A DNA stretch of 64,000 nt from Uranotaenia lowii (taxonomy: Eukaryota > Arthropoda > Insecta > Diptera > Culicidae). Within the stretch, counting starts at the first letter, position 1. Every line of letters starts with the position of its first letter. The notes under the pieces are model-generated. The model saw nothing but the letters and a program-made list of their open reading frames with translations, searched no databases and was not told the origin of the DNA. Below are positions 8,816 to 52,833 of this stretch, piece after piece. The position numbers were made by a program, and so were the translations under genes. The DNA is taken from NCBI RefSeq assembly GCF_029784155.1, contig NC_073693.1, forward strand, positions 359,243,825-359,307,824, given 5' to 3'.

Positions 8816-10288
8816 TCATTCGTCAGCTTTTCGGATGAATTTTCGAACTTTTTTTGTGATACCACCCATCATTTTCTGCACAGTACTGCTGGTAACCTCA
8901 TTCGCCATCTTGTTCCACCATTTTTCCATTTGAGCGGATTTTTCCATGGTTCAGCCACATTTCTTCAGTTTGCCCTTAACTATTGCCCAATATTTTTCGA
9001 TGGGACGAAAATCCAGACAGTTTGGTGTATTGATACTTTTTTCAACAAAATCGATCTTATTCTCCTTATACCACTTAAGGGGCCGTTCAGATACCACGTG
9101 GACAGAAAAAATGAGATTTTTGACACCCCCCATCCCCTCCGTGGACAAGCGTGGACATTTGGCAAACCCCTACCTCCCTCCCCGGATGTCCCGGGTCTCC
9201 CCGTGGACAAATTTGATTTTTTTTTCAAAAACTCATTTGACAGTTAGAAAAGTTACTTTTTTTAGTTACTTTTTGAATATTTGTTATTGGAATGACTGAT
9301 TAAAAAAAAAAAAAAGAAATAGCTTTACCTGATATAAAATAATCTTAAAATTTTTAAATTTCATAAAAATCATATTTATTACTTGCTTTCAAGTGGCTTT
9401 TGATTGTTTAAACTTAAACTGGAAAGCTTTGTAATTCTATGATTCAAACAGTAAGTATGTCCACGTGGAAATGACCCAAACCCCTACCACCCTCTCCGTG
9501 GACAAGCGTGGACATTTCCATACACCCCCTCTCCCCCTAAGTTGTCCACGTGGTATGTGAACGGCCCCTAACGACATCCCGGCTGTAGTGGCCGCTTTGT
9601 GGGACCGAATGAATGGCAAAACCCTCTTCTAGAGACATTCTTCTTTGTAAACATTTCCATTTATTGTGTCCCCAGTGATGAAAATCTTAGTCTTCTTCCC
9701 ACAAGTACAGATCCCTTGCCAAATCATCAACTTACGAGCAAATTTATCTGCAAAAACAAACTTGAATCTACCCGCAACATTCCCTTTACGCTTCGCAAGG
9801 TAAAATTTGTTACCGGGTATTTGTCCAAAATCCATTTTGACGTAAGTTTCGTCGTCCATCAAAATGCATCCGTTGTACTTGGTCAACACTTTCTCGTACA
9901 ACTTCCTTGCCCTGGTTTTTGCAACCAGGTATTGTTTCAGCGTCCTGTTGGGGTGTTTGCTTGTATGATACGACCGCAAGCCTTCTCGCAAACAAATTCG
10001 TCGAGCTGTACTGTGGTTCGTCTTGAACTTTTTCGCCAAATCACGCAAGGAGATTCCAGGATTATTGTGAACTGATCGAATTACCTTTGCTCGCAGCTTC
10101 CGGTCATATGTTCCACTTTTACGCCTGGTTTGTTTTGCTCGATCCACCGAAAGGGTCTCCCGGTAACGTTGCAGCACCGAATTTACAGTCGATTTTGGAT
10201 ATTTCAGAAATTTCGCGATCTTTACCCCTGACCACGTCGGTTTCTCTACGTGAGTGTGCAGAATTTTCTCTCGCCTTTCGCGTTCCAT
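8816..10288 (-). pseudogene. DD37E transposase, broken by two stops and a MITE
   Basis: The family cuts and pastes TA-flanked DNA using a D,D,E triad. The N-terminal part from 10288 shows a paired helix-turn-helix region (GVKIAKFLKYPKSTVNSVL and SLRDLAKKF...TARR) and the first catalytic Asp in CILMDDETYVK. An in-frame TAG at about 9629 follows EECL. The frame resumes as KRVLPFI until the MITE insertion at 9568. Past the MITE the C-terminus resumes from 9075 with DFRPIEKYWA, containing the catalytic Glu, then an in-frame TGA at 8951, and ends at 8816. The segment with the second Asp was not seen next to the insertion. Closely related in layout to the intact copy at 15494-16507. Confidence 0.85.
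9079..9568. mobile_element. 490-bp PIF/Harbinger-like MITE nested in the mariner transposase
   Basis: Inverted termini GGGGCCGTTCAGATACCA (left) and its near-perfect complement (right) continue into CACGTGGACA. TAA flanks both ends (9076-9078 and 9569-9571), the 3-bp TWA duplication typical of PIF/Harbinger. Internal CGTGGACA motifs repeat in both orientations (9089, 9143, 9202, 9461, 9500, 9542 regions). There is no coding capacity. It interrupts the transposase between the HTH/first-Asp part and the PIEKYW motif, so it arrived after the mariner. Confidence 0.85.
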
Positions 10289-15367: not shown

Positions 15368-16660
15368 AAGGGTGATACGGTCAAACTTGGTCAAGCGGAA
15401 ACGCGTGTAAATCGGTGAAATCGATTATTTAAAAAATCAAATTAAATTTCTTTTCCAAGTTTAATTAACATAAAATTCAGGAAAAATGTTCAGTTAGGCT
15501 TCTGCTTTTCCAATTCCGAATTGCCGGGCCTTAAGCTTAACACCTGCCATCAGATTTTGTACCTTGTCCACCTTTTTCGCCGCAGAAAGCCAGTTTGCCT
15601 TGAACTGCTGCTCGTCCTTAGCAGTTTTTTTGGTCTTCTTTAGGTTCCGCTTGATAATAGCCCAGTATTTCTCAATTGGGCGGAGCTCTGGCGTGTTGGG
15701 AGGGTTCTTGTCCTTGGGAACCACCTGCACGTTGTTGGCGGCGTACCACTCCATGCCTTTTTTACCGTAATGGCAAGATGCCAAATCCGGCCAAAACAGT
15801 ACCGAACAACCGCGTTTCTTCAGGAAAGGCAGCAGACGTTTATTCAAACACTCTTTCACGTAAATTTCTTGGTTGACAGTCCCGGAAGCTATGAAAATGC
15901 TGCTTTTCAAGCCACAGGTACAGATGGCTTGCCAAACCAGATATTTCTTCGCGAACTTTGACAGTTTCATGTGCTTGAAAATATCTGCTACCTTTCCCCT
16001 TCCTTTTGTCGTATAAAACTCCTGTCCCGGAAGCTGCTTGTAGTCGGCTTTGACGTAGGTTTCGTCGTTCATTACCACGCAGTCAAACTTCGTCAGCATC
16101 GTCATGTACAGCCTCCGGGATCGCGCTTTGGCCGTCGTATTTTGTTTATCATCGCGATTTGGAGTCACTACCTTCTTGTAAGTCGATAGTCCGGCTCGTT
16201 TTTTGGCTCGATGCACGGTTGTAGACGATTCACCCAGCTTATTTGCGGCATCTCGGAGAGAGAGGTTAGGGTTTCGCTTGAAACTACCGGCAACTCTCTT
16301 TGTCGTCTCAGCGGCTTCCGGTTTTCGATTTCCCCCCGATCCAGACTTCCTGGCTGTCGACAAACTTTTCCCAAACACTTTAATTACATTTGTAACGGTT
16401 GATTTGGCAACTTTTAGCAATTTTGCCAGCTTTGCGTGCGAGTAGCTCAGATTTTCGCGATGCGCGAGTAAAATTTTGATACGCTGCTCTTCTTCCATGG
16501 ACGGCATTTTGACAACTGAAGAGTGAATTCCAAAATCAAAATAGGAGCAACGTTCTACACACACACACACACCTTCAAAATGAGTGGCGTTCAGGTTTTT
16601 AAAATGCAAAATTGAAAGAAATACGTCAAGTTGATATTGACCAAATTTTGACCGTATCAT
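15368..16660 (-). mobile_element. DD37E Tc1/mariner element with intact transposase
   Basis: The left end reads AAGGGTGATACGGTCAAA after a TA (15366-15367). The right end reads TTTGACCGTATCA, the complement of the same motif, but its outermost bases (TCAGGGG instead of CCCTT-TA) diverge, so the right boundary is approximate. The TIR core GATACGGTCAAAnTTGGTCAA is present at both ends. The transposase occupies 15494-16507. The motif is one I associate with very abundant Aedes elements. Confidence 0.88.
15494..16507 (-). CDS. DD37E transposase (337 aa), apparently intact
   Basis: Catalyses cut-and-paste movement of the surrounding element in the nucleus. From the ATG at 16507 the protein reads without stops. 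An N-terminal double helix-turn-helix region covers residues about 5-110 (AKLAKLLKVAKSTVTNVI and LSLRDAANKLGESSTTVHRA). The catalytic residues are Asp148 (MNDETYVK), Asp241 (FWPDLAS) and Glu279 (LRPIEKYW), leaving exactly 37 residues between the second and third, which defines DD37E. The open frame extends upstream to 16660, but that region covers the TIR and a CA repeat; MPSMEEEQ is the natural start. Length is normal for the family. It lies 80 bp upstream of the 5' LTR of the Ty3-type element. Activity is plausible but unproven because the right TIR end is altered. Confidence 0.92.
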   Translation of the reverse strand: MPSMEEEQRIKILLAHRENLSYSHAKLAKLLKVAKSTVTNVIKVFGKSLSTARKSGSGGNRKPEAAETTKRVAGSFKRNPNLSLRDAANKLGESSTTVHRAKKRAGLSTYKKVVTPNRDDKQNTTAKARSRRLYMTMLTKFDCVVMNDETYVKADYKQLPGQEFYTTKGRGKVADIFKHMKLSKFAKKYLVWQAICTCGLKSSIFIASGTVNQEIYVKECLNKRLLPFLKKRGCSVLFWPDLASCHYGKKGMEWYAANNVQVVPKDKNPPNTPELRPIEKYWAIIKRNLKKTKKTAKDEQQFKANWLSAAKKVDKVQNLMAGVKLKARQFGIGKAEA

Positions 16661-16741
16661 CAGGGGGGCCAGTGAAAAAATTTCCCTAATAGTTCACTGT
16701 ATCAGAAGTTAAGGGGGCCCCCTAGAATTGCAGAATTTTCC

Positions 16742-17562
16742 TCTGGTAGGTAGTGCTCGGAATACTTGCAATAGAAAAGAAATAATATGTTAAATTAACT
16801 TCTTCTTGTTTGTTTCAGAAAGTCGCGGCTAAACCGTTCACAGTAAATAAAAATATAAATATGTATTGAAACAATCTGTGCAATCGCTTTAATGAGTAAA
16901 ATACATTCGAAATTAGTTACTGATCTATGACATTTTGAAATTATCCAATTGAGAAAGGTAGGGCTTTAATGACTAAAGATTAAAGGTAAAATATCTATCA
17001 TGAACATAGGAAGCAAACAACGAATGATTTATTGCAGTGTATAAGAGAACGTCATCGTTATTGGCAATGATTTGAGTATTATCGAGAATAATTATGTATG
17101 TGTCACATCACAAGAGAGAAAATAGGATCGTATGAATGGACTGAGCGAGTGTTCCGTTAGGGTGTTAAGGAGTTCCGAGTCAATGTGGTAAATGCGGAGG
17201 TGAGGATGAACTCAAATGTTCCCGAGTAAGAACAAAATCTTACAAAATCTGGCAGATGACGTAGGTTGTTATGTAGAACTTACGCGAGTATGTATGAATG
17301 CTGTATGAAATGTTATCTTACGTGAGTCTTCTTGATCTGCACCACCTGGTTATCTAGACAGGTTGGCACCGAGTATTGTTGAAATTACTCGTGATTTTGG
17401 AACAAGTGTGTGTGAGAGCGATTTGAAAGATGGGTTCGTGGGAGATCTGGGTGATGAGCGTGAGCATGTCATTCTGTATTCGAAATTGGAAGATAGTGGT
17501 TCAGCGTTTACGGAAGTCGCAAATGGAAAGCCGAAAGAAAGGACCTCGACGAGGTTACCACA
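16742..17562 (+). mobile_element. 5' LTR
   Basis: Begins TCTGGTAGGTAG and ends GGTTACCACA. I compared it block by block with the 3' LTR and found no difference. A TATA-like AAATATAAATA lies near 16852-16862 together with an AATAAA. The promoter start and the R boundary cannot be fixed from sequence alone. A long frame through the LTR end (17363-17605) starts at TTG and shows no domain, so it is not annotated as a gene. Confidence 0.93.
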
Positions 17563-17563
17563 A

Positions 17564-17581
17564 TGGCGTAGGCGCTCCCAA
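17564..17581 (+). other. Primer binding site candidate
   Basis: One base after the 5' LTR the sequence reads TGGCGTAGGCGCTCCCAA. A primer site complementary to a tRNA 3' end must start with TGG (pairing with CCA), as it does here. I could not identify the tRNA with confidence. Confidence 0.55.
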
Positions 17582-18088
17582 AGGGTAAGTTCTGATGACG
17601 CTTGATCTTAACCTCGTCGCAATGGGCTACGGCTGGCTTGGCTACGATAGAACGCTGCTTAGACATCTTGTGTTTTAATATTGAGGGTAAGAATTTCTCT
17701 GGCAATAAAATATCCAATATGGAGGTCGAAAATTGCTTTATAATAAAATTTACGAATATCAGTTATATTTTGATAGCAGCTTGTTCATTTGAAGAGGATT
17801 TTAAATATTTAAAAGTGAGGAGGGTTGACTTATTTTGAAGCGGGTTGGTTGAGGCTTGCTACAGCCAGGCGCTACCAAACAAAATGGCGGGCTTTGAAAC
17901 AAAGAGGCAGTTCTGCACACGCATTTTTGCCATATATTCGACACTGTTTTGCAGTAATGGTGGTAATTGGAAATGACAAAAAGAAAGGGGTTCTAGGGTG
18001 CCACTATTTTGTGTCGATGAAGGGTGCATATTCGCAAGGAGTGAATTTACATTTTTTTTTCCGCGAAGTGGATGGTGTGCATCAACAT

Positions 18089-20357
18089 CGAGCATCAGGC
18101 ATGCTCGTTACAAGATGGTGGGGTTTCGGTTGGTTTGTTTTCAGCTGTAGTGATGAAGATCAGAGTACCCGTCGTGCTCATAACGAAGTGTTAACACGTG
18201 AAGTCTTTGTGGTGATTTTTTCCGTGTGAAATTACGTCCGCGAGTGCCGCAAACGGGAAAACCGTAACAACGAAAGTCGGTTAAGTTTTGCATAAAATCT
18301 ATCGGTGCATTATGACGGGAATACACTCGAGAAGGGTGCATTTCAACCTTCTCTTCCCACAAGTGAGCCGGAGAGCATAAGCAACCAATCGGAACCGAGC
18401 ATCTATCATGCTCACATGAAGATAGTGAGTTTCAGTTATTGCGTCTACATGTAGTGGTGGGATGATGACCAGTACCCGCCGCTGCTCGGAGGAAAATCTA
18501 AGGGATTGAATTTTGGGTTGAATTTTATTCCGGAAAATTACGTTCGCGTGTGCTACAAAACAAGACATCTGGCAAACAAGCGCTGGAAACTTGTTAAAAA
18601 AATTGGTTACGATTCACAAAATCAATGAGGAATGGCGATCAAGTAAACATCGAGCAACTATCTGGCTCGCACTATCTTAGTTTTGCCTATTTCGTCTTCT
18701 GTAGTGGTGAAAATGATGGTTAGTACCCGTCGCTGCTTGGAAAGAGTTCATTACGTGAGATTTTGGGGTTGAATTTTATTTCGGAATATTACGTCCGCGA
18801 GTGCTACCAAATTGGAAGTTGGTTACGATTTACGAATTAGTGCATTTTGATCATCCCCCTACATGCGAGCCAGTGAGGACGGGCGACCAAACCAACATCA
18901 GCCTAACAGGCTCGCTCAATTTGGTGAGTATTCTTTGGGGGTATTAGTAAAGAGGAGTGTATCAGTTGTGTGCGTAACAAAATATTAACACGCGAACCAC
19001 CAACCAAGACGGGGTTTTTATTGGTAAAATTATGTCCGCGAGTGCCGCAAACAAAACAACAACCAATTAAACGGAAAACCGTAACAAAGAAAGTCAGTTA
19101 AGATTTACAAAATCTATCGTAGCATTATGATGCAAATTCATTGAAAAGGTTGTGTTTTTAACCTTCTCATCCCAAGATAGTGAGTTTTTGGATATTTTGT
19201 ATCTACATGTGGTGGTGAAGATGATGTTCAGTACCCCGCTGCTTGAAAGAAAATCTGGTCATGTGAAGTTTAGGGTTGAATTTTTATTGCGGAAAATTAA
19301 GTTAGCTACAATTTACGAAACTTATCAGTGCATTTTGACCGTCTTCACCCCACAGGTAAGCCGGTGAGAACGGGCGACCATCCAACACCGTGCCTCTATC
19401 AGGCTCGCTCAAGATAGTGAGGTTTTGATTGGTTCGTCTTCTGGTGTAGTGGGGAAGAGTAGAGTATCCGTCGTCCTAATATCGGGATTTGAATACGCGG
19501 AGTTTGGGCGATTATGTTTCATTGTGAAATTTCTTCCTACGCGCTCCTTTAAATCAAAATAAGTAACAAGCAAACCGGAAGACAACGAGACCAAAAGTTG
19601 GTAAAGATTTACAGAAATCAATCTTGCATTATGGTGTGAGTACATATGCGAAGGGTGAATGTAGGACCATCTTATCTCACGAGTGGGCCAGTGAGTACAG
19701 GTGACCAATTGGAATCGAGCTTCTATCAAGCTCACACAAGATCGAGAATTTTAGGTAGTTCGTATTCACATGTATTGGTGAAAGGAGGCTTGTGGAAGAA
19801 TTTTGTGTCGTCCGCGAGTGGTACAAAACAAACAACTAGCACATCTAATCTAAACTAATCTAAACAACGAATCGGAAAACTGTGACTTGAAAGTTAGTTA
19901 CGGTCTGCTAAATTGGATTTTATTTAGTTAAATTACTTCCGCAAGTGCAACAATACAAAGCCAAATTTTATCGAACCTATCGGACAAGAGTGTACCAGGT
20001 GAATTTTACAAAAAAAAAATCGCTTTGAAATCCTAGTAAGATCAAAAGGTGTCATATCATTGAGTTTCGTAGGCATTAAGACGTTTGCCTCTTTACATTT
20101 CCGAACATGTTAAAACAATACAAATGGCTTATGTAGAACGTTTTTCTCGTAAGAAATCGAAATATTTCAATGGTGTTTTCTTTTGCTTTATGCGCTAAAT
20201 CAGCAGTTCTAATTTATGTTGTGGTGATATACTGGATCGTTTATCATATTTCAAACAAAATCGTAGCAAACAGTGCATTTTAAACCCCCTCCAGTACGCA
20301 ACTTAGCTGTGTGCTCTATACGACCATTCGGCACCAAGCTTCTATCATGCGCGCATA
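18089..20357 (+). repeat. Leader repeat family 1: about seven degenerate ~300-bp units with a CTATC-loop hairpin
   Basis: Units share phrases such as ACGTCCGCGAGTGC, GTGCATTWTGA, GAGCCRGTGAG, GGGCGACCA and AAGATAGTGAG, spaced 250-620 bp. Most carry a short hairpin at 18089-18107, 18397-18413, 18651-18669, 18900-18912, 19389-19407, 19717-19733 and (degenerate) about 20336-20352. Five loops are CTATC. The stems differ but still pair: GAGCAT/ATGCTC, GAGCTT/AAGCTC, and CGTGCCT/AGGCTCG (one T-T mismatch). The pattern implies selection on the fold rather than on the sequence. Confidence 0.75.
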
Positions 20358-21867
20358 TGATGGTATATTCCAAGGTGGACAATAGTGGTAGTGATAGTAT
20401 GAGCGGGTCCAATTTGGTGCAGAGAAGTGAAATTATTTGATGACATCTTAATGTATGTGGTGGGCACATCGCTCTTTAGAGTTTTGCATTCGTAGTGGAG
20501 ATATTGAGTTCTCTTGTATTGAAAATGCACCGTTCGAATACCGGTTGCAAGAATACCGTTTGATGGTAACAACCACAATTAAAGGAGAAGTAAAAGTCAA
20601 GAACAAAAGTTGTCAATTGGGGTAAGAACATAATATGTTGTCAGCAGCTGAGCGTAAGTGCAGCTGATGAAATGGTGTGAATGTTGCGATAGATGAAGAA
20701 GTCCCACTTAAATTAAGGTAAGTTTGGATATGCTAGAACTTTGTGTTTCATACATTGCTTTAGTTTAATTTTGAACTACAAAAATATATACGAGAACTCA
20801 TACATAAGATATGTTGCGGTTGGTGTTCAAAGTTATGAATACTGATCCTTTAACCGACAAGGTATATCAGATGCGATTAAAAAAAAAAAAGCAACAGAAC
20901 TACGACACTATTGCCAATTGCGGGTGTGTCAAAATATAACCATAATACATTGGGCAAAGTAATGCTTTAAGGAAGATGAATGAGACAAAAAGGGAAATAT
21001 TCAACTTAATTATCCATTTACGGCGTTCAAATAACTTGCTGCTAGTACTGGTTGCTGGCAGGTTTAAACGAATGACAAATTTATAGGAGCGGAAATTTAA
21101 ATTCTCGAGTGCTGTTTAATTAATTCGTCAATTGAATCTGTATTTCACTAGCGTAATTTACCGTGGAACAACGATACGGATAATCTATACGTCGAGTTAA
21201 CAGAATTCTAACATGGTGGTAGGAAACATTCGAAATAACCAATGAAATACATTCACTTACGAAATAGGAGGTTGCGATTAGTCGCCCCGACAGAAAGAAA
21301 AGGAAAAGTGAATTAGATTATACTCGGAATATCAATAATTTAAAAAAAAAAATCATTTTTTTTTGGTTTTAATTTTGAAATTTTCATAGTATCACTAATA
21401 TTTCAAGGCGATCTATGAAAAAAGAACTTCTTAAAGGCTGAGGAATCAGTCGATTGCTAAACGAACGATAATTTGACATATTAGTTGATATCAATAGTCA
21501 TATGTTTGGTATATTCAACTTAATATACATATTCCAGTATATTAATTACAATTGCCTCCAATACAAGGGGGGAACCAAATATTGTTTTGTCATATACAAA
21601 ACTTTTATTATTAATCAGCTTATATTGAGCCTAGTTAACGAACTTGAGGTAGAAATTATTCATGATCATTGACAATTTACTAAATTTGGTGAAAAAAGCT
21701 AAATAAAATTATACGAAAGATAGATCTAGCTAAATTCGATCCTTCTAGCAGAGTAAAACTTAATAAAGACTAATAAAAGAAAATAGACGTGTTACTGTTA
21801 CAAAGGATTATTAAAAATCACGATGAAACATCAAAAGATTGCTGTCAACGGAACATATCGAGTTCGA

Positions 21868-22332
21868 TTCGTGCGACAGGTCATGAATTGAATGATTGGA
21901 AGATTGATAAGTTCGGTAAATTCACGAACAGAATAACTCGATCAAGATGAATGAATAAGTACTAGACCAACTCCAATCAAAAGACAACTTGCGACAGGCC
22001 AAGTTCAATTCAATTCATGCGACAGGTCATGAATCGAATAAAGATTGAATAGATAAAATTTGAGTACGGGGTTCAATAACAAACAAAAGATAACTTGCGG
22101 CAGGTCAAGTTCAATGTATTCGTGCGACAGGCCACGAACTTAAAAAAAAAGGTTGAATAAATAATAATTTGCGCTAGATAGTTTACGTTCAAAAGACAAC
22201 TTGCGACAGGTCAAGTTCAATTCGACTCATGCGACAGGTCATGAATCGAATCACTATGAATTGAGCCATTATTTCGTTTAAAGTTGGGACAATTGAACAG
22301 GTAAAACTGTTTCGTGCGGCAGGTCACGAAAC
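21868..22332 (+). repeat. Leader repeat family 2: tandem ~106-bp unit, eight hairpins with CGRCAGGY loops
   Basis: Hairpins with 6-8 bp stems and an 8-nt loop CGRCAGGY are at 21868-21887, 21986-22005, 22014-22033, 22092-22111, 22119-22138, 22198-22217, 22223-22248 and 22309-22332. Stems alternate between AACTTG/CAAGTT and TTCATG/CATGAA or TTCGTG/CACGAA. The A-T to G-C exchange is compensated on both sides, and one copy (21868) shows the G-T intermediate. The AACTTG hairpins repeat at exactly 106-nt spacing. The array ends about 345 nt before the predicted acceptor and 380 nt before the gag ATG, within the predicted leader intron. Confidence 0.85.
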
Positions 22333-22711
22333 GTATAAGTATTGAATGAATGAAATTGGATTTCACATAACAAGAAGCGAACCCTTGGCAGGTAAAGTGC
22401 AAATTGATCGGAGTAACAGACACATGAGTGAAAACATAGTAGAGTAACTAAGGCGCTTAATTATATGACGATTTGAAAAATAATTAAATGAACAAAGGGT
22501 TAGTAAATAGGTGATTAAGAATTCAACGAGGGTTTGGAAATACTGTTGTGATGTTTAGCAGCATTCATATCGTTTAGCAGAAAACAAGCGAACCCATTCA
22601 AATTATACATTACCAAATTTTGCAAGTTGAAGTATAATAAAAATGTTTTACTGATATTTGGGTACATCTTCATTTAGGTGCACTTCGACCCCAAGGAAAA
22701 CAAAACTGAAG

Positions 22712-24163
22712 ATGAAAGTTATGGCAAAAAAGTTGGCTCGAGAAAAGTCGCGGTTGGCGGATTTGACGACTAAGGTGCAAAGACTGGAGGAAGAGAACGC
22801 AACATTGAAGAATCAGACAAAGTTTGGAGATCATGATTTTGAAACCTGCCAAATTGAATCCGAGGGTAGTGAAGTTTTTGCATCTAACACTCAACAGGCT
22901 AGACCAAGTTATAAACCGAATGAATCTCGTTTAACGTCCTCCGTCAACCAATTAGCCATATCGTCTATTTTGATTCCTGAATGCAAACCTTTGGCCAGTG
23001 ATACCGAAATCCACAGGCATACCTTTGAAGCCTGGATCGAGCTTTTGAATAACTATTTGGATCTTGCTGGAATTATTGACGAACCCACTAAGTTTACGAT
23101 TTTCAAAGTGAAGGCTGGCAGTCAGTTGCTTCAGATCTTTAAAAACACCAGCTCTTCAACTGGGGATCCTGACCCCTGCCTTTTTCCGTTCTCTAATGCT
23201 GTTCATCGATTAACCCTATATTTCGGCTCTACATCGGGTGTTATGCTCAATCGACGAACGCTAGCTTCGATAGTCCAAGGCGTTGAGGAATCAGACTTAA
23301 CATTTATCAATCGTGTAGCAGCCACTGCACGACTGTGTAATTACGAAGACCGCGAATTTGCTGAGATAGTTGGAACTGTAGCTGAACGTGCCGTTCATAA
23401 AGAGGTTAGAGTAGCCGCATTCAAAATGATGGGTCGCCAAGGGACATTCACACAACTGGTTGATAAAATCAGAGAAATTGAGGCAATCCGAATTAACGAG
23501 AAGTGTTTTGAACTTAAGCATAGAAAACAAGAACCACTAGTCCTAGCACCCGTCGAAGCCAACATGGTAACCCAGGCAAATGCGTCAACCGGCGACTTTC
23601 GTCGAAGACCTATTCAAGAGTACATAAGCTATGATCGCCAAGGCGATCCGAGATCATCGAGACCGCAAAACAAACCGTACAGAAACAACGATTGGCGTAA
23701 TTACCGTGAGGGATTCCAATTTAACAGAAGACCATACCAGCCGTCCGCCTATAAAGCCAGAGACATTTACGACACAAACAGAGGAAGGTCCAATACTCGC
23801 AGAGACGGCAGATTCCGGTCCCCTGCGAAATTCACCACGAACCGAGGAGACTATCAACCTAGTGGTAAACGACCCAAATCTGAGGATTATTATGAACAGC
23901 AACAAGGCAATCAATCCATCGACAATCAAGCAAGGTGCAAAGGATGTGGAAGCGTTTTCCATCACTATAAAGACTGTAGTTCTTGGGAACTGACGTGCTA
24001 CGGTTGTAACAAAGTTGGACACATCAGAAGGGTGTGCCCGAACGCAGACTCCGGAATTAAGGGACATACACCGCGTCCGTTGGAAACAAGAGAGGTTCCA
24101 TCTGAGGTTAAGACAAATGATAACAGTTCGGATGACCGAGTAAGTGATTCAACCGAGAATTAA
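22712..24163 (+). CDS. gag: Gag of the LTR retrotransposon (483 aa)
   Basis: The structural protein of the element, expected to form cytoplasmic particles and bind the genomic RNA. The frame is open further upstream to 22658 but only through a TTG; the first ATG is 22712 (context AAGATGA). The N-terminus is a lysine/arginine-rich segment followed by a predicted coiled coil (LADLTTKVQRLEEENATLKNQ begins near residue 16). The middle has the helical retrotransposon-Gag region (LFPFSNAVHRLTLYFG, VEESDLTFINRVAATARLC). An Arg/Tyr/Asn-rich basic stretch precedes two zinc knuckles near the C-terminus: CKGCGSVFHHYKDC, with unusual spacing, and CYGCNKVGHIRRVC, a canonical CX2CX4HX4C. The last 7 codons overlap a strong donor site (24140). 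Confidence 0.93.
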   Translation: MKVMAKKLAREKSRLADLTTKVQRLEEENATLKNQTKFGDHDFETCQIESEGSEVFASNTQQARPSYKPNESRLTSSVNQLAISSILIPECKPLASDTEIHRHTFEAWIELLNNYLDLAGIIDEPTKFTIFKVKAGSQLLQIFKNTSSSTGDPDPCLFPFSNAVHRLTLYFGSTSGVMLNRRTLASIVQGVEESDLTFINRVAATARLCNYEDREFAEIVGTVAERAVHKEVRVAAFKMMGRQGTFTQLVDKIREIEAIRINEKCFELKHRKQEPLVLAPVEANMVTQANASTGDFRRRPIQEYISYDRQGDPRSSRPQNKPYRNNDWRNYREGFQFNRRPYQPSAYKARDIYDTNRGRSNTRRDGRFRSPAKFTTNRGDYQPSGKRPKSEDYYEQQQGNQSIDNQARCKGCGSVFHHYKDCSSWELTCYGCNKVGHIRRVCPNADSGIKGHTPRPLETREVPSEVKTNDNSSDDRVSDSTEN

Positions 24164-24368
24164 TTTTTTTTATATTTTAAAGCTTGTTGAAGTGGATGTT
24201 TATTTCCCATTCTGTTAAATTTGTTCATTTTTGGTCACATAAAACTGATGTTCTGAAGAATTGAAATAAATCTTGATATAATACTAAAATAAATACTAGA
24301 GAAGAGCGTTTATGTTTTTTCATTATTCACGACATAATTCCTAATTAGGCTCCGTCTTACATTGGCAG
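24140..24368 (+). other. Predicted 229-nt intron joining gag and pol in frame
   Basis: The donor CGA|GTAAGT at 24140 falls exactly between gag codons 476 and 477. The acceptor CTTACATTGGCAG ends at 24368. A CTAAT branch point (24341-24345) places its A 24 nt upstream. Removal deletes the gag stop and joins codon 476 directly to ATT-ATG..., in the pol frame. Two AATAAA signals sit inside (24265-24270, 24288-24293). The intervening DNA is AT-rich and non-coding, unlike its flanks. Confidence 0.7.
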
Positions 24369-24371
24369 ATT

Positions 24372-27300
24372 ATGATCGGACAGCAGATTTGCGATACGGA
24401 TGGTGATCCTTTCATACTAGCTGTCTTCAATAAGGGTGTCAGCGATGGAATTTTATCAGCTACAGTGGCTGGAATGCCTTGTTCTTTCCTAATAGATTCG
24501 GGGGCTCAGGTGAACACCTTCACGTTTGATCTATTTGAAAATTTGAAAAACGATACCAGATACAAGAGCGGCATGATCAATTTGAAATTCGGAACGGACA
24601 CGCCATTAAAAGGGTACGCTTCTAAACAAGAGATTAATGTTGTTGCTACCTTCGAAGCGCTTCTATATGTGAGTTCGGATCGGCCTGTATTGCTCGAAAA
24701 ATTTTACGTGGTGAAAGAGATCAAGGCACTTTTAGGGAGAACGACTGCGCTGAGATACTCGGTATTAATGATAGGCACAATGGTTCCAATAAGCGTTGAT
24801 GCATCTCACACCGATTTTAAGGAAGTTAATAGTATTGATCAGATTGACAAGAAAATTTTTCCAAAATTCAACATACCACCGGTAAAACTAAGCTTCAGGA
24901 ATCCAAAAGCACCCTGCCGTAACATCTTCACAAATATTCCCCAAGCTCTGAAGCAAACAGTCCAAAGCAGGCTTAACCAATTAGTAGAAGCTGGAATAAT
25001 AGAACCAGTTACTAACAACATGGTCATGACCTTTTGTTCTTCCATGTTAGTGGTGCCAAAAGGAAAACAAGACATTAGACTCGTGATAGATTTACGGGGT
25101 CCAAACAAGTTTATCGATCGTACACCGTTCGCTATGCCGACATTGGAATCTATCCTAGCGAATTTGAACGGAGCAACCTGGTTTTCCACCATCGATCTGA
25201 CCAACGCTTACTTTCACATAGAGCTGGATCAAGATTCAAGGCACCTCACAAATTTCTTCACAGAATTTGGAATATACAGATACGTGAGGTTGCCCTTTGG
25301 GTTGTGTAACGCTCCGGACCTGTTCCAGGAAATCCTTCAAAGGAAAATATTGGGCGGATGTAAAGGAACCCATAACTATCTGGACGATATAATTGTGTTC
25401 GGTAGCAGTAAAGTCGAGCATGATGCAAATTTGGAAGAAGTTCTTTCCCGCCTTAAACAACATAATGTGAACTTAAATCTGGCAAAATGTGCATTCCGGA
25501 AGCAGTCCGTAAACTTCTTGGGCTTCACAATAACGGCAGAGGGATGGAAGGTGTCTGATGAAAAACTTAAAGCAATCGAGGGATTTCGTCGCCCTAGGAC
25601 TTGTGGCGAAGTGAAAAGCTTTCTAGGCTTGGTCACGTTCATGGATAAATTCATCCAAAATCGAGCGGACTTGACTCGAAGTTTGAGAGCATTGGCGAAC
25701 TCTAACTCCTTTTATTGGAAGGAAGACGAGGAAAAAGAGTTTGTTTACCTGCAAAACAGCGCGTTGAAGACGATCAGAATGCTTGGATATTATAGCATTA
25801 CAGATCCTATAGAACTATTTGTGGACGCCAGCCCGATAGGCCTCGGTGCTGTACTTGTCCAATTTAATAATAAAAATATGCCACGCGTTATTTCGTGCGC
25901 ATCGAAATCTTTGACACCCGCCGAACAAAGGTATCCACAGACGCAGAAGGAGGCATTGGCGGTAGTCTGGGGAGTCGAGCGCTTCAGCTTCTATTTACTC
26001 GGCAGATCTTTTGTCGTACGAACAGATGCTGAGGCAAATGAGTTCATTTACAACAGCAATTTTAGACTGGGTAGAAGAGCTTTGACTAGAGCTGAAACTT
26101 GGTCGCTGAGGCTCCAGCCTTATGATTTGAGAATCGAAAGGGTTAAGGGTGAGAAAAATGTGGCGGATGCCCTCTCACGCCTCATTGAGAATACTAAGGA
26201 GGCGATCCCATTTGACGAAGACAACGACAATCATTTCCTTTTCTCTGTGGACGCGGGGATAATGAGCATAACTTGGGAAGAAATTGAACGAGCTTCTGAG
26301 TCTGATACTGAGCTGCAGTCGCTACAAAGGTCTTTAGATTCCAATAAATGGCCGAAAGAGCTGCGTAAGTTCGAGGCTCAGCGTAACAACATCTACAGAG
26401 TCGGAGCTCTGCTGTTCAAAGGAGATCGATCTATTCTTCCCGCTGAACTACGAGTAAAAGTTTTGAAATATGCGCATGGGGGACATGTTGGAGAATCAGC
26501 TATGAAAAGAATCATGCGAGAGTTCTTCTGGTGGCCGGGTATGTCCGTAGATACCACCGACTTCGTGAAATCCTGCGAAACTTGCGCTATTCTGGCCAGA
26601 AAGAACCCACCATTACCCTTGTCTTCCCGAGTTCTACCTGATGGTCCCTGGGAAGTAGTCCAGATTGATTTTCTCTCAATCCCAGGTTGTGGGACAGGAG
26701 AGTTCCTGATTGTGATCGACACTTATTCTCGGTACTTATCAGTAGTAGAAATGAGACAAAAGGACGCTGAAAAAACCAACGTGGCGTTATGCGAGATCTT
26801 TAAACTCTGGGGATGTCCATTGATAATGCAGAGTGACAACGGCCCCCCGTTTCAAAGTGACTGGTTCATCAACTTTTGGGAGAATAGAGGTGTCAAAGTT
26901 AGGAAAGCAATCCCGCTTTGTCCACAGACAAACGGTAGCGTCGAGAGGCAGAACCAAGGGCTGATTAAAGCAGTAGCAGCGGCGAGAATAGACGGCGTTA
27001 ATTGGAGGAGAGCGTTGCAAGAATACGTCCACAAACGTAATACACTAGTCCCACATTCACGGCTCGGAGTGACGCCCTTCGAGTTGATGGTGGGATGGAG
27101 ATATCGGGGATCGTTTCCATGCCTCTGGAACCAAAACGACAAGAAAAGTTTAGATCGCGAGGAAATTAAGGAAAAGGATGCGGAAGCTAAATTGGTCAGC
27201 AAAAAATACGCGGATCATGTAAGAGGAGCAAAAGAAACAGAATTAACAGTAGGCGACACTGTTCTTTTAGCACAAACGAAGAAATCAAAAACAGATCCGA

Positions 27301-27719
27301 CTTTTTCGTCAGAAAAGTTTAAGATTGTAGCAAGGCAGGGTTCTAAGTTTGTAGTGGCTAGCCAGTCGGGTGTTCAATACGCTCGGGCCATTAAGGATAT
27401 CCGCAAAGCTCCCCTACATTCAGGACCTTGGGACGAAACACTTGGCGGCGAGAAAGATCCAGATTTTCCAGAAACTTCGACGGATAGTGTTAACCCAGAC
27501 TTAACACCACTCCATAATACGTCAACGGATTTGTCATTTGGGTATAAAGCGAGGACCAGTGAGTTAGCTGTTAATCCAGAAGATGATACCGCTCCATGCA
27601 GCTTGCAACTATCACAACTTCCGGATCCGGGTTTTTCTTCGTCAAGACTTCGACCTCGTGACTTGGTAAGAAGACCAGCCAGATTTGATGAAAATTACGT
27701 TTTATCGATCTTCACTTAG
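24372..27719 (+). CDS. pol: Pol polyprotein: protease, RT, RNase H, integrase (1115 aa)
   Basis: Copies the element's RNA to DNA and inserts it. Aspartic protease: FLIDSGAQ with DSG at residues 42-44. Reverse transcriptase: LVIDLRGPN, FSTIDLTNAYFHI and the catalytic YLDD at 336-339. RNase H: Asp485 (VDAS), Glu527 (QKEALAVVW), Asp552 (RTDAEAN). Integrase: zinc-binding His702/His705/Cys735/Cys738 with FWWPGM between; catalytic Asp766, Asp822 and Glu858, i.e. DDx35E. A basic tail ends at 27719, 18 bp before the 3' LTR. All catalytic residues are present and no stop interrupts it. It lacks an upstream overlap with gag, so simple ribosomal frameshifting cannot link them; a predicted intron (24140-24368) can. 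Confidence 0.96.
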   Translation: MIGQQICDTDGDPFILAVFNKGVSDGILSATVAGMPCSFLIDSGAQVNTFTFDLFENLKNDTRYKSGMINLKFGTDTPLKGYASKQEINVVATFEALLYVSSDRPVLLEKFYVVKEIKALLGRTTALRYSVLMIGTMVPISVDASHTDFKEVNSIDQIDKKIFPKFNIPPVKLSFRNPKAPCRNIFTNIPQALKQTVQSRLNQLVEAGIIEPVTNNMVMTFCSSMLVVPKGKQDIRLVIDLRGPNKFIDRTPFAMPTLESILANLNGATWFSTIDLTNAYFHIELDQDSRHLTNFFTEFGIYRYVRLPFGLCNAPDLFQEILQRKILGGCKGTHNYLDDIIVFGSSKVEHDANLEEVLSRLKQHNVNLNLAKCAFRKQSVNFLGFTITAEGWKVSDEKLKAIEGFRRPRTCGEVKSFLGLVTFMDKFIQNRADLTRSLRALANSNSFYWKEDEEKEFVYLQNSALKTIRMLGYYSITDPIELFVDASPIGLGAVLVQFNNKNMPRVISCASKSLTPAEQRYPQTQKEALAVVWGVERFSFYLLGRSFVVRTDAEANEFIYNSNFRLGRRALTRAETWSLRLQPYDLRIERVKGEKNVADALSRLIENTKEAIPFDEDNDNHFLFSVDAGIMSITWEEIERASESDTELQSLQRSLDSNKWPKELRKFEAQRNNIYRVGALLFKGDRSILPAELRVKVLKYAHGGHVGESAMKRIMREFFWWPGMSVDTTDFVKSCETCAILARKNPPLPLSSRVLPDGPWEVVQIDFLSIPGCGTGEFLIVIDTYSRYLSVVEMRQKDAEKTNVALCEIFKLWGCPLIMQSDNGPPFQSDWFINFWENRGVKVRKAIPLCPQTNGSVERQNQGLIKAVAAARIDGVNWRRALQEYVHKRNTLVPHSRLGVTPFELMVGWRYRGSFPCLWNQNDKKSLDREEIKEKDAEAKLVSKKYADHVRGAKETELTVGDTVLLAQTKKSKTDPTFSSEKFKIVARQGSKFVVASQSGVQYARAIKDIRKAPLHSGPWDETLGGEKDPDFPETSTDSVNPDLTPLHNTSTDLSFGYKARTSELAVNPEDDTAPCSLQLSQLPDPGFSSSRLRPRDLVRRPARFDENYVLSIFT

Positions 27720-27724
27720 AGTAC

Positions 27725-27737
27725 AGGCGAAGGCGAA
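27725..27737 (+). other. Polypurine tract candidate
   Basis: AGGCGAAGGCGAA abuts the 3' LTR. It is purine-rich apart from two cytosines and sits exactly where plus-strand DNA synthesis should be primed. Confidence 0.5.
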
Positions 27738-28558
27738 TCTGGTAGGTAGTGCTCGGAATACTTGCAATAGAAAAGAAATAATATGTTAAATTAACTTCTT
27801 CTTGTTTGTTTCAGAAAGTCGCGGCTAAACCGTTCACAGTAAATAAAAATATAAATATGTATTGAAACAATCTGTGCAATCGCTTTAATGAGTAAAATAC
27901 ATTCGAAATTAGTTACTGATCTATGACATTTTGAAATTATCCAATTGAGAAAGGTAGGGCTTTAATGACTAAAGATTAAAGGTAAAATATCTATCATGAA
28001 CATAGGAAGCAAACAACGAATGATTTATTGCAGTGTATAAGAGAACGTCATCGTTATTGGCAATGATTTGAGTATTATCGAGAATAATTATGTATGTGTC
28101 ACATCACAAGAGAGAAAATAGGATCGTATGAATGGACTGAGCGAGTGTTCCGTTAGGGTGTTAAGGAGTTCCGAGTCAATGTGGTAAATGCGGAGGTGAG
28201 GATGAACTCAAATGTTCCCGAGTAAGAACAAAATCTTACAAAATCTGGCAGATGACGTAGGTTGTTATGTAGAACTTACGCGAGTATGTATGAATGCTGT
28301 ATGAAATGTTATCTTACGTGAGTCTTCTTGATCTGCACCACCTGGTTATCTAGACAGGTTGGCACCGAGTATTGTTGAAATTACTCGTGATTTTGGAACA
28401 AGTGTGTGTGAGAGCGATTTGAAAGATGGGTTCGTGGGAGATCTGGGTGATGAGCGTGAGCATGTCATTCTGTATTCGAAATTGGAAGATAGTGGTTCAG
28501 CGTTTACGGAAGTCGCAAATGGAAAGCCGAAAGAAAGGACCTCGACGAGGTTACCACA
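27738..28558 (+). mobile_element. 3' LTR
   Basis: 821 bp, the same length and apparently the same sequence as the 5' LTR. It is followed by the TTTCC duplication at 28559-28563 and then ordinary flanking DNA. No solo-LTR or rearrangement signs. Confidence 0.95.
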
Positions 28559-28563
28559 TTTCC

Positions 28564-31828: not shown

Positions 31829-32049
31829 TATGATTTCAAAGTAGTCGAAGATTCCTTTGAATTCAGCTACAGTTTTTGAAAGACCCAAATACTAGTATTT
31901 CACTAGCTACTTGCTAGCATCCTCAGTGGGTTATCGACTGTCGATAACCCACTGAGGATGCTAGCAAGTAGCTAGTGAAATACTAGTATTTGGGTCTTTC
32001 AAATACTGAAGCTGAATTCAAAGGAATCTTCGACTACTTTGAAATCATA
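31829..32049. repeat. 221-bp near-perfect palindrome (foldback)
   Basis: Two 110-nt arms (31829-31938 and 31940-32049) are exact reverse complements apart from two mismatches and are separated by a single base at 31939. In RNA this would form a 110-bp hairpin with almost no loop. No flanking duplication is obvious. Confidence 0.92.
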
Positions 32050-48003: not shown

Positions 48004-51000
48004 TCAGACTTTATGCAAAAGTTTGGCTTTCCGAAGGAAAGCCAGAACCTTGGTCTCTTCTTCCGGGCAGTTACTAAGAATTTCCCTTAGGCTTGTTGCA
48101 AGACGGCAGGTCTGTCTGATAAGATGGTATTGAGGACATGTAACCAAGATGTGTTTGATGGTAATTTCTGTGTCGCAGCATGGGCAGATTGGAGGGTGGC
48201 TTTTAGTCAAAAGATGTTCGTGTGTGAGGCGAGTGTGGCCGATACGGAGGCGGGTAAGAGCCCTTCTTTCATTTTGGGTCGGTCTGTCTGTCCATTTAAC
48301 CGTGGAGTTTTTTATTTCACGCAACTTTGCATGGAGATTGGAGTTCCATTCGATGTCCCAGGATTCTTGTAGAGACCTTCTTATGAAGTTGAGGGCATCT
48401 TGTTGAGGAATGACTATCGGCGGGGGATCCGAAAGCGTGGCTGCGGCTGCAAGTCGATCGGCGGCTTCGTTTCCGGGGATTCCGGCATGCCCCGGTACCC
48501 AGCAAAGGGTGATTTGCTTTTGGAGAGCTATTTTGGTGATGGTTGGTAGCCAAGGGTGTTTAATGTTGCCGTGTGACAAGGCGGAGAGCACACTGGCCGA
48601 ATCGCTGAAGATGACAGTTTTTGGATCGTATGTTTCAGCTGCTTTTAGTATTGCGAACGCCTCGGAGCTGAAGACCGAACATTGCGATGGGATAGGTAGG
48701 CTTAGATTGTTGTTACCATTGTATACGCCGCTCCCGACTCGGCCGTTGTTGGTTTTGGAACCATCTGTGTATGCGTGAGGGAGGTGGCCAAATTTATGTT
48801 CCACAAGCTGTCTAAAGTGGGCTTGAATGATTGTTGGGGGATCATTTTTTTTAATAACTTGCATCAGGCTTAAATTTACTATGGGAGTTTTATCGTTCCA
48901 GAAACTAATACGAGGTTCTGGTCTGGGGCAGATCGGTGGGATTTCGTTGCCCGTCAGGTTGGAGAGGAGGGTGTTCGTTCTAGCAACCATTTGGTATTCG
49001 CTGGAGCCCCCATTTGAGAGCCAACGCACGGCTTTTGATGATAGAAGTTTAGCGATTGTGTATTTGAATGGGGTTTGGCCGCTCTCAGCCATCAGTGAAC
49101 TGATTGGGCTGGTGCAGAAAGCGGAGCCAATGATTCGTATGCAGCTATTGTACAGAGGTTCCAATTTGGTGATGATTTCTGAACTAGCTCGGCTGAGTAG
49201 GCCCAGCCCGTGTAGGATTGAAGGAAGAAACCAACCGTGGAGGAAGCGAAAGAGGGAATCTCTGTGGGCGTGGCTGGTTTTGTTGGCTAGGATTTGAAGG
49301 ATGGATAACTTAGCTTTGGCATTCTTTCGAATCTGGTTCAGATGAAGATTGAAGTTTAGTCGGTCATCCACCCAAATACCAAGTAGGCGGGTGGAGCGGG
49401 TCAGTGGTATTATTTGGTTGTTGATGGTGAGGTCGGGCAATTTCTTGAGTTTTCTTCGATTTGGACCGATATGTAGGAGGCAGGATTTACTGGGTGAGAA
49501 CTGGAAGCCCACAGTGGGTGCCCAGTTTGCTATTTCGGTCAAGGCTTCTTGGAGTCTTTTCCTGGTAGTCTTGGGAAAGGCTGATGTTGATATGAGTCCA
49601 GAATGTCGTCTGCGTAGACCAGTGCTTGTATGTTTGGCGGGATTTTTTGGAAGATGGAGTTGATTGCGATGAGGAATAGGGTGGGGGCTATTACTGATCC
49701 TTGAGGGACCCCTCCGTGGACTGTTATTTTTTCGGAGCGAGTGCCGTTTACGAGGACTTGGATGCTGCGATCTGATAGAAAGTCGGTTATGTAGTGCATT
49801 ATCCTTCCTACTATTCCCCTTTCGTTCAGTTGATTTATGATAGCGACTCTGTCGACACGGTCGAATGCTTTAGACAGGTCGAGCGAGGCACACTCTGTAT
49901 GGTAGTTCCTTTGGGAGGGTGAATCAAGAAGCATTTCTAATTCTTGAAAGTAGTCGTCGGTGGATCGACCACTACGAAAGGTATTTTGGCGATGATCTAG
50001 CAGAGACTGTCCTTCGAGGATGGCGTGGAGTCGTCGGTTTACCATTCGTTCCATTATCTTGCCAGTGCAGGCCAGCAAAGTAATGGGTCTGTAGCTATCC
50101 AGGAGGTGAGGATCTTGTTTAGGCTTTACTATAGGGATGACTAGACCCAGTTTCCAGCAGTTGGGGAAAGTGCCATTTATCCAGATTTCATTGAAGATAT
50201 GGAGAAGCGTTGTTTTGCCGGTGAGTGATAGGTTTTTTAAAAAGGGGTAACCAATATCGTCGGGGCCGGCTGAGAGGCCCTTGACTTTCCTCAAAGCTGC
50301 CTCAAGTTCGTCGAAAGAGAAGTTGGTGTTATAGATCCTTTCGTTCAGGGATGGGTTTGTTGGCAAAGGTAGCATAGTGGTGTTTGAGGGAGATGATATG
50401 GATGCAAAGTGGGAGCAGAAGGAGTTGGCTAGGGTGGAAGGGTCGTTTATGTATTTCTGGTTCAGGAGAAGATGGAAGGGATTGCTTCGGTGTTCGCCGT
50501 TGAGTATTTTTATTTTGTTCCACAGAACATTGGTTGGGGTGTTTGGATGAACCTCTTCTGTGAATTTCTGCCAGCTGTTGGCTTTGGCGGTGCGAACTAC
50601 GGCTCTGGCTAGTGAACGGGCTGTCTTGAATTCTGAGAGTGCCTGTTGTTTTCTAGGATCATCATTTGGAATTCTTTTCAGGTATCGTAGTGCTTTCCGC
50701 CTTTTTTTAATGGCGGAACGGACTTCTGGACCCCACCAAGGGACTGCAGTCTTGCCGGGGACGCCGCTGGTCCTCGGGATGTTTTTAGTTCCTGCTTCCA
50801 AAAGTATTTTAGTGAAGGAGGGGATGCATAACGATGTTCCAAGGGCTAGGGATTTATCGACTTCCATTTGGTATCCTATCCAGTCTGCCTCGTCGTACTT
50901 CCAGCGAGGTCTGGTCGCGGATTTAGGTGTAGGGTGTTCGAGCTTAATCAAGATAGGGAAATGGTCACTGCCGAAGGTGTCGTCAAAAATTTGCCAACCA

Positions 51001-51671
51001 AACTTTGGTCCGAGCTCCCATGAGACCAGTGTGATGTCGATAGCGGACATATTGCCGGAGGCAGGGTCTATTCTGGTTGGTTGCAAGTTGTTTAAAATAG
51101 TCAAGTTTCGGCTTAAGGCTAGGTCTTCCAAAAAGGACCCTTTATTGGTGGTGTGGGAACTGCCCCAGCAAGTGGAGTGGGCGTTTAGGTCACCCATGAT
51201 GATGAAAGGGGGTGGAAGCTCGGATAAGAGATGCTCTATTTCACTTGTGAACTGATGGTAGGGCAGTTGTGGAGGAATGTAGAGAGATACGACGGTTATG
51301 TCTATCGGTGTGTGGACTCTGAAACAGACTGCGTTTAAAGTGGTGTTGATGTTGAGAAGTTTGTATGGGGTGTTGATTTTTACGGCTAGACCGGCGCCTT
51401 GGCGTGATGATGGGTCGGATATCGTATGTAGATTGTATCCTTTTATGATGTTTTGAGGGATTTTGGAGTTCGTAAGTATGTCTTGGATGGCAAAAATAGT
51501 CGGTGAAGCATTTGAAAGGAGGATTTGAATATCAGGAAGTCTTTTTGTGAGGCCTCTAGTGTTCCACTGGATGGCAAAATTTTGAGATTTTTTTTGAGCG
51601 GGTCGGTTAGTCACGGTGGTATTGTAAGATTGGTTCTGCATTCTATTTAGTGTGCTTGACGATGTATCCAT
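48004..51671 (-). pseudogene. LINE ORF2: endonuclease, RT, RNase H, with one frameshift
   Basis: Would nick the target and reverse-transcribe the element's RNA. The first frame (51671-49539, 710 codons) has the endonuclease (WNTRGL..., FIIMGDLNAHSTCWGS, SAIDITLVS), then the RT (GLSAGPDDIGYPFL, ASLDLSKAFDRVD, GGVPQGSVIAPTLF and YADD at residues 686-689). A one-base loss near 49596-49600 throws it out of frame. The continuation (from about 49595 to 48004) carries STRLLGIWVDD, the RNase H (YTDGSKT, SSEAFAILKA, IFSDSASVLSAL, PGHAGIPGNEAAD) and a C-terminal CCHC (CPCCDTEITIKHILVTC). All catalytic residues are otherwise intact. Confidence 0.92.
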
Positions 51672-51693
51672 ATTTGTTTGGGATAGGTTTAAT

Positions 51694-52833
51694 TTAACGG
51701 TTTTGGTTTTGTGACTTACCGAACTGCTTGGAGGGGTCTGGTGTTGTAGTTTTACCTGGCTGGGTGGTTTGCGAAGTGGATGGGAGAGCTTGATTTTTCT
51801 GACCGCGCGATCGTTTTTTCTTGGGTCGTTCCTTAGTTTGGCTTTTTATGGGGTCACCTCCGGTGGGAGAGTCTTCGGAGGATGTCTTCCAAAAGCGCTT
51901 GGGTGTGGAGATTGTGCTAACTGTGGAGCTGTTACTGGTCATGTCGGTGTCGCTGTCAGATTCCTCGTGTGATCCTGGTTCCGATTGATTTTGGTTTTTC
52001 ACTTGGCTTGTGAGTTTCTCAATTTGGGTGGTGAGAAAGGCTACCAATTGTTTGAGTTCTGATATTTCCTTGTTCTTGTCGTTGATTGCGGAATTTAAGC
52101 TGGCTTGGTTGAGTCGCTGTTGGACTGATGTTGTTTGGTTTTGGCGGAGACGATATTCTTTAACAGCTTCGTTGTGTGAAATGCCCTTATCGGTCCTGAT
52201 TTTAATTATCTCCTGCTCGGCCTGGAAGGCAGGGCAAGATCGGCTGTTGCTGGGGTGGGAGCCTTGGCAATTTACGCAGTAGGGTGTTTTTTGGCAGTCT
52301 TTGTGGCTTTGCTTTTCTCCGCAGTTAAGGCAGGTGACATCATTCTTGCAGTGCTTTTTGGTGTGTCCAAGTATGCCACACTGCAAGCAAGTCATTGGTC
52401 GAGAGTAGTACGGACGGGTTTGAGCTTGAATGAAGCCGAATCGGATGTGGGTGGGAACTAGGGTTCCTTGGATGGTTAGGACAAAGGTGTTGGTGGGTTG
52501 AATTTTTCCGTCAATCTTTCTGGTAAATCGGTACACGTTGGTTACCCCTTGATTGGCAAGGTCTTTGGTTAATGCCTCGTCAGTAGCGCCAGCAACTTCC
52601 CGGCAAGTTACCACGCATTTGCAGCTGTTGAGTGTTGGTTGGAGCTCTACGGTGACGGGAGTTGAATCAATCAACTGTTTGACGGATAACAGTTTGTCAA
52701 TTGGGGCGGGTTTGAGCAGCAGGAACTTAATCGGTCCGTGTGCTCCGTTCGGATCCATCCATTCAGGGATTTGTCTTTGATTGGAGCTTGATGGGATTAG
52801 GGACTTTCCCCATGGCGGGGTATTTTCCCCCAT
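51694..52833 (-). CDS. LINE ORF1, nucleic-acid-binding Gag-like protein (379 aa)
   Basis: Packages the LINE RNA. The ATG at 52833 opens a 379-codon frame. Residues 60-150 form an RRM-like region (VELQPTLNSCKCVVTCREV... and NTFVLTI...IRFGFIQAQTRPYYSRPM). Three CCHC knuckles follow: CLQCGILGHTKKHC, CLNCGEKQSHKDC and CVNCQGSHPSNSRSC. A Gln/Asn-rich coiled coil (NKEISELKQLVAFLTTQIEKL) and a Ser/Pro/Lys-rich basic tail end it. The stop lies 22 bp before the ORF2 ATG. Intact. Confidence 0.93.
   Translation of the reverse strand: MGENTPPWGKSLIPSSSNQRQIPEWMDPNGAHGPIKFLLLKPAPIDKLLSVKQLIDSTPVTVELQPTLNSCKCVVTCREVAGATDEALTKDLANQGVTNVYRFTRKIDGKIQPTNTFVLTIQGTLVPTHIRFGFIQAQTRPYYSRPMTCLQCGILGHTKKHCKNDVTCLNCGEKQSHKDCQKTPYCVNCQGSHPSNSRSCPAFQAEQEIIKIRTDKGISHNEAVKEYRLRQNQTTSVQQRLNQASLNSAINDKNKEISELKQLVAFLTTQIEKLTSQVKNQNQSEPGSHEESDSDTDMTSNSSTVSTISTPKRFWKTSSEDSPTGGDPIKSQTKERPKKKRSRGQKNQALPSTSQTTQPGKTTTPDPSKQFGKSQNQNR

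Follow-up and report, generated by a model that had tools for sequence, protein, structure and literature searches.

The stretch of DNA studied here (the window, 64 kb of one Uranotaenia lowii genome) contains a young long terminal repeat (LTR) retrotransposon of the Ty3/Mag type, whose leader holds a tandem array of double hairpins with the loop CGRNAGGY upstream of gag. Selection on pairing and on the loop preserves these hairpins, which occupy a single strand at each locus. The array is common to this autonomous element and to LTR elements of the same genome that carry no genes, and two other gag clades of the genome have hairpin arrays with other loops. The array is rather likely to be a multicopy RNA packaging signal that is read by Gag and has been hijacked by the gene-less elements.

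Double hairpins kept by selection on pairing and loop

The motif CGRCAGGY occurs nine times in the window, each time on the plus strand. Eight of the sites lie at 21874-22324, each with an unbroken stem of 5-12 pairs (G-T allowed), and the ninth, at 48104, has no stem. The initial annotation had described eight hairpins with this constant loop upstream of gag, and all eight sites are indeed paired. The stems it named (AACTTG/CAAGTT, TTCATG/CATGAA and TTCGTG/CACGAA) are all present, together with the G-T intermediate at 21868, and the gag frame opens downstream at 22655, with its first ATG at 22712. Its unit of about 106 nt with two hairpins agrees with Tandem Repeats Finder (period 106, 2.6 copies, 21974-22251) and is refined here to three full A-B double hairpins and two B hairpins with weak or lost A partners. 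The hairpins span 21862-22333 and comprise the following features:

21847..21895, plus strand: B hairpin with loop CGACAGGT at 21874, 12 pairs, A partner decayed (model match, E 2e-5)
21983..22041, plus strand: A-B double hairpin 1, loops at 21992 and 22020 (model R1, 75.5 bits)
22089..22143, plus strand: A-B double hairpin 2, loops at 22098 and 22125 (model R1, 54.2 bits)
22195..22253, plus strand: A-B double hairpin 3, loops at 22204 and 22232 (model R1, 77 bits)
22288..22338, plus strand: B hairpin with loop CGGCAGGT at 22317, 9 pairs, A partner decayed (model match, E 1.6e-4)

By stem count the array is modestly unusual, with seven non-overlapping hairpins of at least 6 bp versus 2.9 (standard deviation 1.5, maximum 7) in 100 dinucleotide shuffles. 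The case therefore rests on the constant loop and on other copies. A search of Rfam with 16742-22700, up to E 5, gave two weak matches, none of them over the array.

Array DNA has at least 103 matches in the genome at E ≤0.001, and CGRCAGGYCAWG occurs 428 times, versus 325 for the reversed pattern, frequently clustered among the matches listed. The survey identified 237 CGRNAGGY loop motifs across 27 loci, each with a cluster of three or more. Although the motifs were selected by the loop alone, 224 of them are paired over at least 4 bp, and in all 27 loci they share a single strand. The 141 unique 38-mers, a set that excludes locus L064 and motifs lacking two neighbours within 200 nt, divide by loop into 63 with CGACAGGT, 53 with CGAGAGGT and 25 others.

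The repeat unit is a double hairpin, consisting of a 6-bp stem A, one base, and a stem B of up to 13 bp, and both of its hairpins have the loop CGRNAGGY. The single base between the two full helices follows from the loop-to-loop distance, which is 28 nt in 88 of 95 A-B neighbours and 27 nt in the other 7. In stem A, the inner CTTG/CAAG is almost invariant, the outer two pairs are A-T, G-C or G-T, and none of 72 cases pairs at position 7. Stem B is highly variable. RNAalifold indicates an additional C-G pair within the loop. In the gene-less arrays L096 (reverse strand) and L088, normal modules are interleaved with a second loop, CAGAGAGT, on the stem AAACTTG/CAAGTTT.

Covariation was assessed on 27 dissimilar modules, namely those of 58 unique A-B modules that have a spacing of 28 and differ from one another at four or more positions. 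Paired cells make up 87.9%, versus 78.3% in shuffles. Two-sided changes occur in 12 of 19 pairs, versus 8.7 in shuffles, of which 3 of 500 match the observed value. The number of cells with two-sided changes is 63, versus 25.8 in shuffles and at most 25 in slid versions. A second gag-bearing subfamily, L069, whose gag is 86-87% identical, allows a direct comparison with the window array: 2 of 114 stem sites and 4 of 64 loop sites are changed, as against 81 of 416 spacer sites (p 4e-8), and all 43 gap columns fall in spacers, with 0 in hairpins. Array pairs were also compared where a single BLAST alignment covered 400 nt or more at 70-97% identity, with hairpins defined in one member. Hairpins are less changed than spacers in every one of the 76 pairs listed, which overlap and are not independent; hairpins contain 0-1 gap columns, and the weakest pair is L055/L061 (p 0.05). 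As in a packaging signal of the retroviral type, the leader RNA is structured and conserved in its pairing.

The proposal that selection maintains a fold with a recognised loop is thus borne out by covariation, by hairpins frozen while spacers diverge, and by pairing at nearly all motifs. Two contrary outcomes named in the initial annotation, pairing lost as readily as the loop and an unrelated minisatellite outside the element, were not seen: beyond this family the array recurs in LTR elements, and pairing is kept there as well. A minisatellite that spreads passively in elements without function would be tandem and variable in copy number, as is seen here, where a clade-II 16-mer is repeated exactly up to 48 times in one stretch (C2:2610076-2613408). 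Such passive spread is nevertheless barely credible, as spacers diverge and take indels whereas hairpins do not, and it is contradicted for the window versus L069.

The initial annotation had also offered palindromic sites in double-stranded DNA for an insulator- or promoter-binding protein, like the Su(Hw) sites in gypsy. The tandem position in the leader and a constant part that could be read in DNA suit this proposal. However, the arms differ widely with their complementarity kept, which the reader of a fixed duplex site does not need, and no fixed DNA site sequence is apparent, as judged without a Su(Hw) matrix scan. DNA sites are therefore a poor fit and very unlikely. Three familiar recognition sites were also rejected for the loop, namely a splice donor (CAG|GT), a Smaug site (CNGG) and a nuclear-receptor site (AGGTCA): C is allowed as the final base of the loop, its first two positions hardly change, and the right arm is variable.

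Gene-less LTR elements with the same array

Neither gag nor pol is present in six complete LTR elements of the genome, each 5.4-8.2 kb long (L054, L055, L058, L059, L096 and L097). Their LTRs measure 275-559 bp and are 99.8-100% identical, and target duplications are present in five of the six, L058 being unclear. Each contains 8-12 hairpins of at least four pairs, beginning 0.8-2.4 kb past the 5' LTR, and all arrays are in the sense orientation relative to the LTR, the primer binding site (PBS) and the polypurine tract (PPT). The longest internal sense frames encode 75-130 amino acids in L054, L055, L058 and L059, and the longest sense frames of the loci L096 and L097 encode 145 and 138. No match to Mag-like proteins was found in L054-L059 (22 proteins) or L095-L097 (135 proteins). 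With LTRs, PBS, PPT, no coding capacity and a long internal region, all six resemble large retrotransposon derivatives (LARDs).

L054, L055 and L059 align with the window element in the array only, and L058 in the array and one more piece of 57 bp. As these four match the window element almost only there, the array is the main shared internal sequence. Among L054, L055, L058 and L059 themselves, matches outside the array are short and lie at the LTR/PBS and PPT/LTR edges. The ends are alike by eye, with an LTR end ACYACA, a PBS like ATGGCG..CTCCCA and a PPT ending in GGCGAA. By the same inspection, the LTR starts with TGTAGT in L096, TGTGGT in the other gene-less elements and TCTGGT in the window element. 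The gene-less elements probably ride on the autonomous element, which would mobilise them as a helper.

The presence of the array in all six complete gene-less elements bears on its function. A role in gag translation, through shunting, internal entry or repression by Gag, would suit a position just upstream of gag, but the gene-less elements have no gag to translate and such control is accordingly highly improbable; packaging, export and dimerisation remain. The initial annotation had suggested both packaging and translation control, of which the former is favoured here and the latter disfavoured. A signal for RNA dimerisation or reverse transcription, acting without loop recognition by Gag, could equally be common to gene-less elements, and arms of different copies can cross-pair in the predicted fold. 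The loops are not self-complementary and are the most fixed part, and the stems are free to vary provided that pairing holds; this explanation is judged quite improbable.

Loop types of gag clades and a proposed packaging model

The gag survey lists 92 matches, from 88 scored of 782 candidates. Arrays of the window type lie upstream of five gags at 87-100% identity and of the decayed subfamily L110 at 68%. A sample of 12 further gag loci, each with 1.3 kb upstream, comprised six with arrays of other, clade-specific GG-rich loops, one ambiguous locus, and five without. L098, L099, L100 and L103 have A-type stems with the loops CTAGAGGA, CTGGAGGA and CTAAGGA/CTACGGA. The loop TGRNAGGA sits on varied GTG/CAC stems in L101 and L102, where eight of nine sites have at least four pairs. 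In the scan of arrays for such other loops, 13 loci overlapping others were left out. In a tree of 11 gags, window/L069, L098/L099/L100/L103 and L101/L102 form separate, fully supported groups that match the loop types, so that loop type tracks gag clade for clades I-III. Example loops are:

Clade I: CGACAGGU
Clade II: CUAGAGGA
Clade III: UGGCAGGA

The clade-II 16-mer CTTGCTAGAGGACAAG occurs 197 times, versus 0 for the reversed sequence, and the matches listed include rows of 8, 16 and 48. The 48 exact copies at C2:2610076-2613408 form one stretch and are mostly 52 nt apart. Over the 1.5 kb that follow two of the CTTGCTAGAGGACAAG rows, gag gives no match, as would be expected if these were gene-less elements of clade II.

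Gag is favoured as the reader by the way in which the loops change from one gag clade to another but retain GG. These loop differences also bear on an RNA export or stability element, through which a host protein would export or protect unspliced element RNA. Constitutive transport elements act as RNA export elements, gene-less elements would need this function too, and it suits many copies with conserved loops. A host reader, however, gives no reason for loops to differ between gag clades in one genome, and this explanation appears unlikely.

In the packaging model, the transcript would display many copies of the loop, and Gag of the same clade would bind the single-stranded, GG-containing loop via its two CCHC knuckles. 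Clustered Gag binding could then initiate the assembly of a particle on this RNA. By displaying the same hairpins, LTR elements without genes may enter the particles of the autonomous element and so persist. Binding of the loop by Gag is suggested here from sequence comparison. The Gag knuckles match those of LIN28 and of HIV-2-type Gag at E 0.03-0.06, which was not used as evidence.

Several observations weigh against the packaging model. The number of further pair types is not raised (24 versus 26.5 in shuffles), and the excess of G-T over A-C, which served as a strand test, is weak and confounded by composition. When the whole 590-nt array is folded, copies cross-pair and several hairpins are lost; when spans are limited to 60 nt, seven of the eight sense-strand hairpins form with a value of at least 0.57. 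The antisense strand folds about as well under the same limit, and the strand was therefore chosen by orientation to LTR and gag, not by folding. L104, whose gag is 38% identical to that of the window and lies far from it in the tree, has the window-type CGAGAGGT five times on other stems (three of five paired), which counts against a strict loop code. L105-L109, five of the 12 sampled loci, lack such an array in the 1.3 kb upstream of gag. The gene-less elements were located via the array, so that the sample covers array-bearing ones. The main caveat is that the agreement of loop and gag may stem from joint inheritance alone.

A more general Gag-loop code is proposed tentatively and falls somewhat short of an even chance. 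Each Mag-like Gag lineage would read its own loop (CGRNAGGY; CTNGAGGA or CTAAGGA/CTACGGA; TGRCAGGA), and gene-less elements would parasitise a lineage via long arrays, perhaps with up to 48 copies per stretch. If this code were true, parasite and master would compete through their numbers of tags, and the code would account for the masterless LTR elements with repeats that mosquitoes carry. Little is known about the choice of RNA by Gag of insect LTR retrotransposons. In U. lowii, one module marks both partners, with a loop that differs by gag clade. The array thus offers a small, direct binding test of how Gag selects RNA, and a rule by which parasite elements can be matched with their helpers.

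The host element and known systems

The element that carries the array has a leader of 5.1 kb. It shows the LTR pair, the target duplication and the order (putative) protease, reverse transcriptase, RNase H, integrase of Ty3/Gypsy elements. The named relatives of its pol are mostly 'K02A2.6-like' mosquito proteins (best 120 of 1058 listed), and from this name we read the element as a member of the Mag lineage. Its parts are:

16742-28558, plus strand: LTR retrotransposon, young, Ty3/Mag-type, LTRs identical
16737-16741 and 28559-28563: target duplication TTTCC flanking the element, from sequence
16742..17562, plus strand: 5' LTR of 821 bp, 100% identical to the 3' LTR over 821 bp (self-BLAST)
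17563..17582, plus strand: PBS stretch ATGGCGTAGGCGCTCCCAAA, from its position behind the 5' LTR and likeness to gene-less elements
22655..24163, plus strand: gag frame with two CCHC motifs, first ATG at 22712
24345..27719, plus strand: pol frame with reverse transcriptase, RNase H and integrase of Ty3 type
27717..27737, plus strand: PPT stretch TAGAGTACAGGCGAAGGCGAA, from its position before the 3' LTR and likeness to gene-less elements
27738..28558, plus strand: 3' LTR

An older tandem repeat in the same leader (18083-20361) has a unit of about 250-300 nt and copies that are 68-78% alike, and holds a few GAGCNN-CTATC-NNGCTC hairpins. It was rejected as a second hairpin family, as just three with at least three pairs were printed in the window leader; none with at least five pairs was found in L054, L055, L058 or L059. 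Elsewhere in the window, 31829-32049 is a fold-back palindrome of 221 bp with a 97.7% match to its own reverse complement. Two non-LTR retrotransposons with endonuclease, reverse transcriptase and RNase H domains lie on the minus strand at 48004-52833 and 60234-63827. Two minus-strand frames, 9629-10288 and 15494-16660, have transposase-type helix-turn-helix domains, and the latter frame also matches DDE_3 weakly.

Scanning for the pattern turned up 6 and 7 loci in viral contigs and 32 in GTDB genomes; these phage and bacterial loci hold no more than two matches apiece, which were taken as chance. A pol search of viral contigs gave no relative. No described hairpin array of this kind was found in the titles and abstract beginnings of the open-licence papers listed.

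The Su(Hw) array of Drosophila gypsy consists of tandem DNA sites in the leader. It shares this arrangement with the U. lowii array, whose arms, in contrast, change with pairing kept. The gypsy array is named as an insulator in the part consulted of an account of Culex quinquefasciatus (PMC3286476). The same part describes 38 LTR families without coding sequence but with tandem repeats, LTRs more than 98% alike, PBS, PPT and duplications, and three Mag-lineage elements (cqgypsy_24, 25 and 66) with tandem repeats in the 5' untranslated region. By description, Culex thus resembles U. lowii in that tandem repeats occur both in gene-less LTR elements and in Mag elements. Neither a master nor a reason for the repeats is given in that part, and hairpins or packaging are undiscussed there.

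LARDs, also named in that part (PMC3286476), are, together with barley BARE2/BARE1, among the closest known systems for the U. lowii gene-less elements. BARE2 lacks Gag and is packaged in BARE1 particles (PMC3735527). This pair is of the Copia type and from a plant, and the excerpt states 'conserved dimerization and packaging signals' with no octaloop array. Murine VL30, with its helper retroviruses, is likewise a gene-less LTR element, retaining only PBS, packaging signal and PPT according to the section consulted (PMC9450689). Its signal is vertebrate retroviral, unlike that of the U. lowii element. To our knowledge, the VL30 signal is not a multi-copy double-hairpin array.

Yeast Ty3 belongs to the same superfamily as the U. 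lowii element. The zinc finger of its nucleocapsid, a single knuckle, is needed for RNA packaging, and cis sequences lie at the RNA ends (PMC4974528); the portion of the encapsidation account consulted includes no hairpin array, unlike the U. lowii element. Gag of mouse mammary tumour virus binds single-stranded GG/AG purines of the loop of stem-loop 4, which is needed for packaging (PMC8096270, in part). That signal is one site of other sequence near the PBS, whereas the U. lowii arrays have 8-12 hairpins at 0.8-4.8 kb from the LTR. This loop, VL30 and BARE2 are precedents for the packaging model. The GG kept in the clade-specific loops is in line with these GG/AG loops and with the Ty3 zinc finger, as far as the excerpts describe them.
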